DNA of 64,000 bases. Origin: Dyadobacter sp. CECT 9275. Lineage in GTDB: Bacteria > Bacteroidota > Bacteroidia > Cytophagales > Spirosomataceae. The position numbers were made by a program, and so were the translations under genes. Location of the stretch: the NCBI RefSeq assembly GCF_907164905.1, contig NZ_CAJRAF010000004.1:372001-436000 (forward strand), given 5' to 3'. The notes beneath the pieces are model-generated. The model was not told the origin of the DNA, searched no databases, and saw nothing but the letters and a program-made list of their open reading frames with translations. Numbering within the stretch: the stretch's first letter is position 1; the number at the start of each line of letters is the position of its first letter. Shown in pieces: positions 5,135 through 8,117 of this stretch.

Positions 5135-6616
5135 ATGTCTATGAAGAATTTCATCACCGGAATAATTTGCTTCTACCTGCTTTTTCCTGCGAAATCATTT
5201 GCACAAAAAAAGGACTACCTTTTTTATGTAAAAGAACATTGTGACCAGCTCATTGCTCATGGCAAAGATGTATACGGTGATAAAAAATCGGATATGCTAG
5301 CCTCCATCATCGACACACGGGACATGAGTGTACCCAAGTGGAAGGTTCCTCCTACCCAGGGTACCCGCGGGTCAGACCGTGCCGTAGGAGGAAGTAATTA
5401 TTATCACGATGTGCAAACGATAACAGTGTTAAATTCCTTAACAAAACTTACCGGAGACGCTAAATACAAGTCTGCCGCAACCCATTACACCAATGATTTT
5501 TTAACCCTTTGCCAAAATCCCTACACCGGACTTCTGGGCTGGGGAGAACATCTGTACTATAATTTTTATGCAGATTCAGTAAGGGAAGGAGATCTGGACC
5601 AGCCTGGACTTTACCTGACACATGAGTTCATCGAAAATACTCCTCCCTGGCCAAATTTGTGGGAAATGGATTCGGCTCGAACTACCCGCGCCATCATCGG
5701 GGTGAGAGGACACTTCCGGTCACCGGTAACCCAGAGCTTTCTTTACAACCGCCACGCGAGATGGAATAAAATACTGAAACCCGAATACCGTGGCCTGGAA
5801 CAATATCAGGACGGCGGCCAAGCCTGGATCAAACATTCCGGTTTACAGTGTTATTCCTTTACTTTTCTTTATAAAAAAACCGGCAATCCGGAGTGGAAAA
5901 GATGGGCAGAAGGAACCGGTAAACTTTTCTGGAAATACCGCAATCCGGAAACAAATCTTACCATCAGCTGTATTGATGACCCGCGCCCAAGCGGCATGTA
6001 TGCCAATATCAATTCCATGGGATTGTTGAGCTACTATCTGCTGAAATCATGGCAGGTAGATCCCCGCTTTGCTCATTTCAGAAAACAGGCAGAAACAATG
6101 CTAAAATCCGTGGAAAAATACTCCTGGGACAAAGCCAGAAGCGGGTATGTCACAGAGCTGCAACTAGACGGCACCGTGTTTAACAAGGAACTCGTTAACG
6201 TTGTGGAAACAGGATATGGCAATGCGGACATCCTGCTTTTTGGCAGGATAGCCGCCTATTTTTATAAAGTTACGGGTGATAAGGCCTATCTGGAAATGGT
6301 AAAAAAGATCTCCGCTATGTTGCTGAAACATTCGTGGCCCGACACCTTCGTAGTGAACAGCCTTGCCAGTGCACTTCAGTTTTCCATGGATGCATATGAA
6401 GTGACAGGCGATACCAGACTTCTTGATCTGGCCGGAAAATACGCAGATACCGGCATCAATAAACTATGGAGCGGGAAGTTGTTTGTTCGTGAACCCAAAG
6501 ATCCTTATTATGAGGCAAAACTTGGAACGAGTGATCTGGTAGCCGGCCTGCTGCGCCTGCATATGATCCAGAACTCCAGATCAGCAGATGCAGGTCTCTT
6601 GTTATGGTCGTTGTAA
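5135..6616 (+). CDS. Secreted (alpha/alpha)-barrel protein, putative glycoside hydrolase or lyase
   Basis: 493 residues starting MSMKNFITGI with a Sec signal ending near SFAQ. The body is helical, with recurring segments such as TKLTGDAKYKSAA, KKTGNPEWKRWAEGT, YKVTGDKAYLEM and YEVTGDTRLLDLAGKY. These resemble the inner-outer helix hairpins of (alpha/alpha)6 barrels seen in AGE epimerases, unsaturated glucuronyl hydrolases and several polysaccharide lyases. No catalytic motif lets me choose between these. It is the last gene of the operon, 18 bp after the DUF6807 gene, and its export suggests that it releases a sugar that the upstream enzymes oxidise. The family is not recognised with certainty. 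Confidence 0.6.
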   Translation: MSMKNFITGIICFYLLFPAKSFAQKKDYLFYVKEHCDQLIAHGKDVYGDKKSDMLASIIDTRDMSVPKWKVPPTQGTRGSDRAVGGSNYYHDVQTITVLNSLTKLTGDAKYKSAATHYTNDFLTLCQNPYTGLLGWGEHLYYNFYADSVREGDLDQPGLYLTHEFIENTPPWPNLWEMDSARTTRAIIGVRGHFRSPVTQSFLYNRHARWNKILKPEYRGLEQYQDGGQAWIKHSGLQCYSFTFLYKKTGNPEWKRWAEGTGKLFWKYRNPETNLTISCIDDPRPSGMYANINSMGLLSYYLLKSWQVDPRFAHFRKQAETMLKSVEKYSWDKARSGYVTELQLDGTVFNKELVNVVETGYGNADILLFGRIAAYFYKVTGDKAYLEMVKKISAMLLKHSWPDTFVVNSLASALQFSMDAYEVTGDTRLLDLAGKYADTGINKLWSGKLFVREPKDPYYEAKLGTSDLVAGLLRLHMIQNSRSADAGLLLWSL

Positions 6617-6660
6617 CGAAATCCTACCAGGAAACAATTTGATTTAAGGTGTTTGCAAAG

Positions 6661-6997
6661 ATCTGCGGGTTAAATATCTCCCGCGGATCTCCGCTGATTC
6701 CTAACTCGCTGATCACCGCTAAAACTCTTCTGCGAAAATCTGCGGAGTAAAATCCTACAAATCTGCGGGTTAATATTTCCCACAGATAAACGCTGATTCC
6801 TTACCCGCTGATCAACGCTGAAACTCTTCTGCGCAAATCGGCGGGATGAAATCTTACAAATCGGCCGGGTAAATATCTCCCGCGGATAAACGCTGATTCT
6901 TTACCCGCTGATCAACGCAGATACTCGTCTGCGGAAATCTGCGGATTAAAATCCTGTAAATCTGCGGGTAATATTTCTCACGAATTTCTTAACTTGT
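6661..6997 (+). repeat. 100-bp tandem direct-repeat array, about 3.3 copies
   Basis: Units begin at 6661, 6761, 6860 and 6960 with ATC(T/G)GCGGGT or a close variant, giving a 99-100 bp period. The fourth copy breaks off after about 20-30 bases. Within each unit ATCYGCGGG is followed after about ten bases by CCCRCRGAT, an imperfect hairpin, and CGCTGAT/CGCAGAT words face ATCTGCG words further on. One more diverged copy in the same orientation lies beyond the next gene (7449-7531), so the GxxExxY gene sits between copies. The spacing is far too long and uniform for CRISPR, and no spacers are present. Confidence 0.85.
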
Positions 6998-7015
6998 CAC
7001 CAAACACTATCACAC

Positions 7016-7411
7016 ATGATGACTACAAACGAACTTTCCTACGAAATCCGAGGCTGCATTTTTAATGTCTACAACAACCTTGGCCCCGGATTGCTTGAAT
7101 CTGCATACGAAGCAGCTCTTGCATATGAATTACACAAGAAAAACCTCTCGTTTGCCAGGCAAGTAGGCTTGCCGATGGTATATGAAGAACTTAGTCTGGA
7201 AATCGGGTATCGCCTAGATATTTTGGTTGAAAATAGAATCATAATTGAGATTAAATCGGTTGAAACGTTATTAAATGTCCACCATAAACAGATCATCACA
7301 TACCTCAAATTATCAGGATTAAAGCTGGGTTTGCTGGTAAATTTCAACTCCGATGACATTTCAAAATCCATTTTCAGGAAGGTAAATGGATTTCAGGATT
7401 TCACGGACTAG
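7016..7411 (+). CDS. GxxExxY protein (PD-(D/E)XK-like superfamily)
   Basis: 131 residues. The signature G25-x-x-E28-x-x-Y31 is present as GLLESAY. A nuclease-like core follows: D68 in YRLD, then E78-x-K80 in IIEIKSV, then QIITYLKLSG. This is the PD-(D/E)XK arrangement to which Pfam assigns the family (PDDEXK_3). The biological role of the family is not known. The gene stands alone on the + strand between an intact helical-barrel gene and decayed sequence, and 100-bp repeats flank it in the same orientation on both sides. That suggests a cassette that moves or is maintained with the repeats (inference). The start is the first of two adjacent ATGs; no clear ribosome-binding site is seen. Confidence 0.9.
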   Translation: MMTTNELSYEIRGCIFNVYNNLGPGLLESAYEAALAYELHKKNLSFARQVGLPMVYEELSLEIGYRLDILVENRIIIEIKSVETLLNVHHKQIITYLKLSGLKLGLLVNFNSDDISKSIFRKVNGFQDFTD

Positions 7412-7448
7412 TGGGCAGCGCAAAAGGTTTACCTGCAAGTAACCGCAG

Positions 7449-7531
7449 TTTTTTCTCCGCGGAAATCTGCAGGCTAAATCTGTAATATCTGCGAGCAACC
7501 CTTAGTTAAATTCCCACGGATAAACGCAGAT
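7449..7531 (+). repeat. Diverged copy of the 100-bp repeat downstream of the GxxExxY gene
   Basis: The words CCGCGGAAATCTGCAGG, AATATCTGCGAGC and CCCACGGATAAACGCAGATT align in order and orientation with the end of one array unit and the start of the next (compare 6929-6970 and 6880-6900). Identity is visibly lower than among the upstream copies. With the upstream array it brackets the GxxExxY gene. Confidence 0.7.
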
Positions 7532-7541
7532 TGTTCTGGTA

Positions 7542-7572
7542 GGGCGGGCGGCTGCTTAGAATCCGCCCGCCC
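7542..7572. other. Perfect GC-only hairpin (10-bp stem)
   Basis: GGGCGGGCGG at 7542-7551 and CCGCCCGCCC at 7563-7572 are perfect inverted repeats around an 11-base loop. No T-run follows on either strand, so it is not a textbook intrinsic terminator. It lies at the downstream edge of the repeat-flanked GxxExxY locus. Confidence 0.6.
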
Positions 7573-8117
7573 CGGCTTTGGTATATATCTCCCTCATTTA
7601 AAATCTTCAAGTTTCCGTTGGTCATGCCAATATCTTTATTGAGTATGCCACAGTCGGCCGCCACGATCACATTTCCGAAGCACATTTAACTCCCAACTCC
7701 TCATCTCCTTAGTAAGTAGCCCTTCCCCCCGGACGGATCAAATACACCCGGCGACCGGTTTATTGAAACTTCATACAACTCCATTTTACCCTGATCGTCT
7801 TTCATTTATGGTAGATAGACTTTACAAGAAGTGTCCTCAGCCACCATGTGACCATCCTGGAAGCCCTGCCGGACATAGATTTTGACAAGGCTCAACATGA
7901 AATGGAAGCACATCTGGAACATGTCAAAGACAGTATGAAGAACGTAAATGAAGTAAAACGGAGGATGTAGGAAAGGGTGAGGTAAAGCACAATCTTCATA
8001 TTCCTACTTTGCGTCGGTATCCCAGCTCCATACTGCATCCTCTTCAATTCGAAATACACTGGCATACAATTTGCCACAACTTGCTACAAGCAAGAATCAA
8101 CTTAATTCATAAAACCA
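7573..8117. other. Gene-free region with decayed coding fragments
   Basis: No intact gene is seen here. Three short coding-like fragments remain. On the minus strand, about 7706-7808 reads from an ATG to a stop as a 33-residue peptide (includes MELYEVSINRSPGVF). A second minus-strand stretch, roughly 7570-7685, reads as GNVIVAADCGILNKDIGMTN. On the plus strand, 7813-7968 ends in a charged helix (MEAHLEHVKDSMKNVNEV). I do not recognise any of them. With the frameshifted kinase that follows, the stretch looks like a graveyard next to the repeat array. A short heptamer-like string (TTTAACTCCCAACTCC) lies near 7686-7701. Confidence 0.4.

Follow-up and report, generated by a model that had tools for sequence, protein, structure and literature searches.

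Lineage-linked pairing of GxxExxY nuclease-like genes with mirrored arrays of short words at gene junctions

The closest described systems to the locus studied here are the REP/RAYT pairs and the intervening sequences of 23S rRNA. The palindromes of REP/RAYT systems flank the gene and are cognate to its product; they are also found by themselves as hairpins and may cluster in tandem (PMC3116915, PMC8266576). Intervening sequences carry terminal inverted repeats that are cut by RNase III (PMC4990558). An open reading frame (ORF) of the S23 or PF05635 family lies between the inverted repeats. Here, we analyse a stretch of 64,000 nucleotides from Dyadobacter sp. CECT 9275 (contig NZ_CAJRAF010000004.1, positions 372,001 to 436,000; the whole stretch is hereafter the window, and positions are counted from its first letter), in which a gene of the GxxExxY family is associated with palindromic 100-bp repeats. 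Among relatives, such nuclease-like proteins are generally paired with mirrored arrays of short words, the pairing is linked to the protein lineage, and the units come and go at a gene junction. We give a probability of about 50% to the reading that the gene and its word palindromes are one selfish unit working like a REP/RAYT pair, with a Cas4/RecB-like PD-(D/E)XK nuclease replacing the HUH transposase; we infer that the protein recognises and cuts the words and that mobility occurs through such cutting. No earlier description of this pairing was found in a literature search that left most subscription papers and preprints outside its reach. The available passages on GxxExxY do not mention repeats there, and six typical word strings gave a single match, by chance, in an unrelated paper.

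The locus is organised as follows.

6661-6982, plus strand: tandem array of 3.2 units with a period of 100 (Tandem Repeats Finder, 81% matches, score 416)
6661, 6760 and 6860, plus strand: starts of the units, followed by a partial unit at 6960-6982 (comparison of direct copies)
6676-6775, plus strand: unit 1 in the hairpin register (fold z -4.9 as DNA, -4.7 as RNA)
6775-6874, plus strand: unit 2 in the hairpin register (fold z -2.7 as DNA, -3.0 as RNA)
6875-6974, plus strand: unit 3 in the hairpin register (fold z -5.9 as DNA, -5.5 as RNA)
7016-7411, plus strand: intact GxxExxY gene of 131 aa (PF13366, E 3e-40; TIGR04256, E 1e-41)
7428-7478, plus strand: diverged second half of a unit, directly 3' of the gene (71% identical to 6900-6950)
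7479-7535, plus strand: by reading, the first half of another, diverged unit (88% identity between 7512-7535 and 6878-6901)

A previous reading of this DNA made from the sequence only had described 100-bp direct repeats before the gene, a diverged unit after it in the same orientation, inverted words within the units, and a gene lying inside the repeat, and each of these observations holds. The units starting at 6760 and 6860 are 75% and 84% identical to the one at 6661, and the only other row returned by Tandem Repeats Finder for the 64-kb window falls within the same array. Each full unit is palindromic: words such as CGCGGAT and CGCTGAT on the plus strand come first, and complements such as ATCTGCG come after them. 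When the register is moved to start at 6676, the units fold as single-stranded DNA or RNA below shuffled sequence, which is what the z values above express. The piece before the gene (6960-6982) corresponds to the beginning of a unit and the piece after it (7428-7478) to a second half, which places the gene inside a fourth unit of a palindrome that was, as we read it, amplified locally. The array does not qualify as a CRISPR (its 100-bp units are contiguous, 75-84% identical, and lack spacers), as a known structured RNA (Rfam has no match at E<=1 in 6400-7800), or as part of an anti-phage defence system (PADLOC, 0 families at E<=0.1). A separate G+C-rich inverted repeat of 15 nt with a 1-nt loop is found shortly after the unit remnants (7542-7572).

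The protein is a member of the GxxExxY family: it carries the motif and scores above the curated cut-offs of PF13366 (137.7 bits, cut-off 22) and TIGR04256 (141.9 bits, cut-off 35), two family names that give no function. The structure model (pLDDT 93.8) places E28, Y31, D68, E78, K80, Q92 and Y96 in a predicted PD-(D/E)XK fold, as had been proposed from the sequence, with the alpha/beta core and the D and E-x-K active site of this superfamily. The fold and the conserved D...ExK...QxxxY are shared with Cas4, RecB/AddB, lambda exonuclease and the Hjc resolvases, and Hjc is similar in size (114 residues in 1gef); the protein is a small, predicted Cas4/RecB-like nuclease whose modelled fold is closest to DNA nucleases. 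The E and Y of the motif are invariant in 203 of 203 ungapped sequences (204 in all), the nuclease active site is invariant in 203-204 sequences, and the dN/dS is 0.086: the protein is under purifying selection. Of the 194 genomes sampled from the window's order, 117 have GxxExxY genes, and the family extends to archaea and to many phyla. Phages and plasmids can be set aside as the main route of this spread (matches in 0 of 50,697 phage records and 4 of 72,556 plasmid records). The only other trace of the family in the window's genome is a broken copy (G000:C2:2770046-2770305, loci L002 and L003) with adjoining word-like remnants; by reading, it precedes a carbamoyltransferase-like gene, a kind of place that holds a copy in other genomes of the genus, intact in G139 (L031).

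How does this compare with the known systems? As in REP/RAYT, the palindromes flank the gene, occur alone as hairpins, cluster in tandem, and go with the protein lineage, the last in a statistical sense over relatives. However, RAYTs (TnpAREP) are HUH enzymes with a catalytic tyrosine, whereas PF13366 is the sole Pfam match of the window protein, its predicted fold is PD-(D/E)XK, and the HUH domain is absent. We therefore reject membership in REP/RAYT, for lack of an HUH/Y1 tyrosine transposase. The repeat also differs, being an array of short words instead of a single palindrome core. The likeness to 23S rRNA intervening sequences lies in the ORF between inverted repeats, but the GxxExxY unit is outside rRNA, with an unrelated ORF and other words. 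The window element is not itself such a sequence: its neighbours are protein-coding, the Rfam search was negative, and its ORF matches PF13366 only.

Flanking repeats are a general property of GxxExxY genes. We compared the 200 nt before and the 200 nt after each gene by local alignment in both orientations, with 200 dinucleotide shuffles of the 3' flank as null and p<=0.01 as threshold. When genes were picked by motif (from 191 loci, of which 32 were dropped because the motif search missed the gene and 4 for short flanks), 128 of 155 passed (117 inverted, 55 direct), compared with 10 of 313 control ORFs of at least 120 aa in the same loci; three of these ten are, by reading, PF05635-like or GxxExxY genes themselves. 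When genes were picked by profile, 153 of 201 passed (141 inverted, 65 direct), as did 42 of 84 PF05635 genes. These sets were obtained from 218 and 85 hits, respectively, by removing identical proteins and short flanks; the 201 ORFs stand in 196 loci (two each in L053, L083, L090, L099 and L233), and 10 belong to a series of leuC-leuD junctions from the window's genus. Without this series, the counts are 145 of 188 for GxxExxY and 40 of 76 for PF05635. The difference between GxxExxY genes and controls is highly significant (p ~1e-73, Fisher's test, relatedness ignored), and the link of gene and repeat proposed by the sequence-only reading is borne out, far beyond the single locus that it had before it. 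Base composition is excluded as its cause by the dinucleotide shuffles and the control ORFs. The association extends beyond the phylum of the window: among 78 testable loci of named-species genomes, 45 of 57 pass in Bacteroidota and 17 of 21 elsewhere, including Pseudomonadota (4/4), Planctomycetota (2/2), Nitrospirota (1/1), Spirochaetota (1/1), Chloroflexota (1/1) and an archaeal phylum (1/2). For the window gene, direct similarity between the flanks is significant (0 of 200 shuffles as good) and inverted similarity is not (p 0.405), a result probably due to the complete palindromic units in its left flank. We take its 100-bp tandem array to be a local form of the arrangement, inverted arms being commoner than direct ones among relatives (141 vs 65 of 201).

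The arms are made of words of 7 nt. The commonest, CRCRRAG, has a density of 9.9 per kb up to 180 nt from 188 GxxExxY genes; the figure is 1.48 per kb at a distance of 320-680 nt, and beside 76 PF05635 genes it is 0.66 per kb. A scrambled word gives 0.81 and 0.33 per kb. At least three words of the set are found at 135 of 188 GxxExxY loci, at 3 of 76 PF05635 loci, and in 12 of 102 equally wide window pairs placed 520-700 nt from GxxExxY genes. The variants differ by locus (CACAGAG, CGCAAAG, CGCAGAT, ACAGGAT, CGCAATG and others), and the flank of L127, from Dyadobacter sp. 3J3, is nearly identical to that of L215 in the genus set. PF05635 ORFs are often flanked by word families of their own, e.g., AAGCACTAAGCACC or CATCGAACATCG, and each ORF family uses a nearly private vocabulary. 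A nearest-neighbour k-mer classifier of the flanks was uninformative (right for 182 of 188 GxxExxY loci, but for only 16 of 76 PF05635 loci), which we attribute to A/T-rich words and unequal numbers; word counts were used instead.

The interval from word to word is 8-10 nt in 198 of 359 cases (mode 9), and the words mostly point toward the gene (plus:minus 146:50 in the 5' arm, minus:plus 196:61 in the 3' arm). This spacing of about 9 nt and the mirrored arms would also suit an array of binding sites: the words could be operators for the protein's own expression, with the nuclease serving in repair or defence and the words saying nothing on mobility. Purifying selection on the protein fits this scenario too, but words stand on both sides of the gene, including the 3' side, and in gene-less palindromes, the leuC-leuD junction changes state 13 times within one genus (see below), and the defence library gave no match. 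We regard it as very unlikely.

The type of word is associated with the protein lineage. On a tree of 182 GxxExxY proteins, word classes need 48 changes vs 112 after shuffling (0 of 200 shuffles as low), and the window's class, WGAT, needs 6 vs 30. When the 40 loci classed as 'none' and the 17 classed as 'mixed' are left out of the 182, the word class of a protein agrees with that of the nearest protein from another genome and with unrelated neighbours at 91 of the 125 remaining loci, against a mean of 33 and a maximum of 50 in 2000 shuffles. The class is shared by 9-19% of pairs at 25-50% protein identity and by 13 of 13 pairs at 80% or more; proteins of the same genome with less than 60% identity share it in 3 of 28 pairs. 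Word type is therefore tied more closely to the protein than to the host. The classes were chosen after the flanks had been read, and we therefore added a class-free k-mer test: rho is 0.168 for the flanks, where 300 permutations gave at most 0.071, and 0.006 for control flanks at a distance of 320-500 nt; the effect is significant but small. Among 181 proteins, the nine nearest to that of the window (63-74% identical) carry CGCAGAT-type words throughout and hardly any of another type. Four of them come from a single genus (g39), and three of those four have related neighbours; this leaves seven independent sites, and none of the nine has neighbours in common with the window. At 55-59% identity, word classes mix. 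The 'none' loci are themselves clustered on the tree (14 changes vs 36 shuffled), and they may use further word families (e.g., AATCATAATCATC at L039).

The leuC-leuD junction of the window's genus reveals the turnover of the units. There were leuC matches in 47 of 48 genomes, with 46 readable junctions (1 of 47 was unreadable). A GxxExxY gene between CACAGAG-type arms occupies 12 of the 46 (counting L243 as GxxExxY), and 13 have a PF05635-type ORF between other words (of the CGGCTGTCGGC / GCCGACAGCC or AAGCTTTAGGC type in those read); a further 13 are empty (13-19 nt), and 8 have 42-115 nt without gene, with word remnants in most (by reading). The PF05635 state was set by a sequence motif, with L219 checked in Pfam (PF05635, 9e-36) and G139 in the family search. 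On the leuC tree there are 13 changes of state, or 14 when L243 is counted apart. Well-supported sister genomes differ, with GxxExxY in G200 vs the PF05635 type in G230, and GxxExxY in G216 vs the PF05635 type in G199, and L233 has a broken GxxExxY unit nested inside outer words of the PF05635 type. A second common site, between an aminotransferase and a carbamoyltransferase (by reading), has in both arms CGCAGAG-type or CGCAATGG-type words, depending on the genome. In three genomes (L225, L337 and L338), the 5' word arm of leuC-leuD contains at one place about 14 additional G+C-rich nucleotides that resemble CGGCCGCCGCGCGG, perhaps another tiny palindromic insertion.

The PF05635 ORFs, which encode the four-helix protein of 23S rRNA intervening sequences, are thus found as intergenic elements at the junction used by GxxExxY units, and they occur in 128 of the 194 genomes of the order. 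Examples are:

L219:2177-2536: PF05635 ORF
L218, L221, L222, L232, L242, L245 and L266-L335: further PF05635 ORFs

This opens the possibility of an element that acts on RNA like the intervening sequences: the arms would pair in the operon transcript, RNase III would cut the stem, and the ORF product, nuclease or four-helix protein, would bind or process the RNA, the element persisting because it is nearly harmless and spreading via RNA or recombination. The neighbours are in agreement with it, since both are on the strand of the gene for 115 of 167 GxxExxY genes (both opposite in 17) and for 63 of 70 PF05635 genes (both opposite in 1). It gains weight because PF05635, the intervening-sequence family with its RNase III-cut terminal repeats, shares the architecture and the co-direction with neighbours; moreover, the two ORFs replace each other at leuC-leuD. 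Yet the words of the leuC-leuD arms are kept on both sides while the letters between them drift, so that the arms often fail to pair (by reading), which suits recognition of words better. The fold is nearest to DNA nucleases, and co-direction may reflect only the need for expression. On balance, we consider an RNA-level element unlikely, if the strongest of the competing explanations.

Palindromes also occur without the gene. Hairpins with no PF13366 match nearby were found in G029, G114 and G176, and an array of this kind in G064. At least four such palindromes are present in G114, and their word type is that of its resident gene (L197). The surroundings of 80 genes (603 kb in total) contain 20 word clusters at a distance of more than 400 nt from the gene; 8 of these are less than 1 kb away, and of the 20, at least L080 and L097 look like chance occurrences in coding DNA. 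In G064, five tandem palindromic CACAGAG units (L247, C12:219359-220132) alternate with copied sequence that resembles the first codons of the adjoining minus-strand gene. Could the genes then be ordinary cargo? The palindromes would be non-coding repeats spread by the host and moved otherwise, like MITE or REP sequences, GxxExxY and PF05635 genes would be captured passengers, and the match between word and protein would result from spread as a block. Gene-less palindromes, even in a genome without detected gene (G045, L394), and the common arrangement of two unrelated ORFs speak for this. It accounts poorly for the near-private vocabularies given above, and an invariant nuclease site with so low a dN/dS would be odd for a passenger; we find it improbable.

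The reading of a selfish unit with its own nuclease implies the following mechanism. The nuclease would recognise the word of its own unit, either in hairpins of single-stranded DNA or in extruded cruciforms, and cut there. Host repair or replication would then copy the palindrome, with or without the gene, to other intergenic spots, and the preferred targets would be inside operons, where the gene can be expressed.

Several results weigh against this reading. PF05635, an unrelated ORF not known as a nuclease, has the same arrangement, so that the nuclease may not be what moves these units. Also, 48 of the 201 GxxExxY ORFs miss the threshold of the flank test, several of them with words on one side only (by reading). 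Unlike G114, the window's genome has no dispersed copies at the sensitivity of BLAST: with the array as query, its 7.23 Mb (4 contigs) gave no second array, and the next match had E 0.31. The REP/RAYT-like link between gene and repeat made by the sequence-only reading stands in that the flanking words are general and follow the protein lineage, and is weakened by this absence and by the gene-less repeats. One near-perfect palindrome occurs in G045, which has no PF13366 match. The link would also suffer if repeats were equally frequent without the gene: random samples gave 2 clusters per 400 kb in five gene-bearing genomes vs 1 per 400 kb in four gene-free ones, a count too small to decide. The gene is present in 11 of 13 genomes with a CACAGAG-palindrome match vs 106 of 181 others (p 0.08); in G114 and G091, at least, some of the matches counted lie next to the gene itself. 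The search scored at most 4 candidates per genome. As to the steps of transposition, no target duplication and no excision product was seen, and a comparison by reading, without alignment of filled to empty sites, of leuC-leuD junctions that differ in type between sister or near genomes gave no exact insertion end or target duplication. Finally, the empty sites expected of a mobile cassette exist at leuC-leuD (13 of 46), but the window's own site offers no clean filled/empty pair: two sister genomes share the upstream gene and lack the repeat and gene, but their downstream neighbours differ.

A broader view, which we hold tentatively and with less conviction than the nuclease-driven unit itself, is that these loci belong to a widespread prokaryotic class of intergenic selfish units. 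Each would consist of a tiny ORF (a GxxExxY nuclease or a PF05635 four-helix protein) between mirrored arrays of a private word; the nuclease would read this word, spaced by about one turn, in a hairpin or cruciform and cut it, so copying itself and gene-less palindromes into operon junctions, where unit types would displace each other. The pairing could account for intergenic repeats of the CACAGAG, CGCAAAG and CGCAGAT types, and the lineage-linked word provides this orphan nuclease family with a candidate substrate that can be tested directly. It suggests a mobile-element route based on a PD-(D/E)XK enzyme, which, if true, would be a route of transposition without HUH, DDE, serine or tyrosine recombinase. 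If PF05635 elements share the same plan, 23S rRNA intervening sequences would be one special form within a far broader group of elements.
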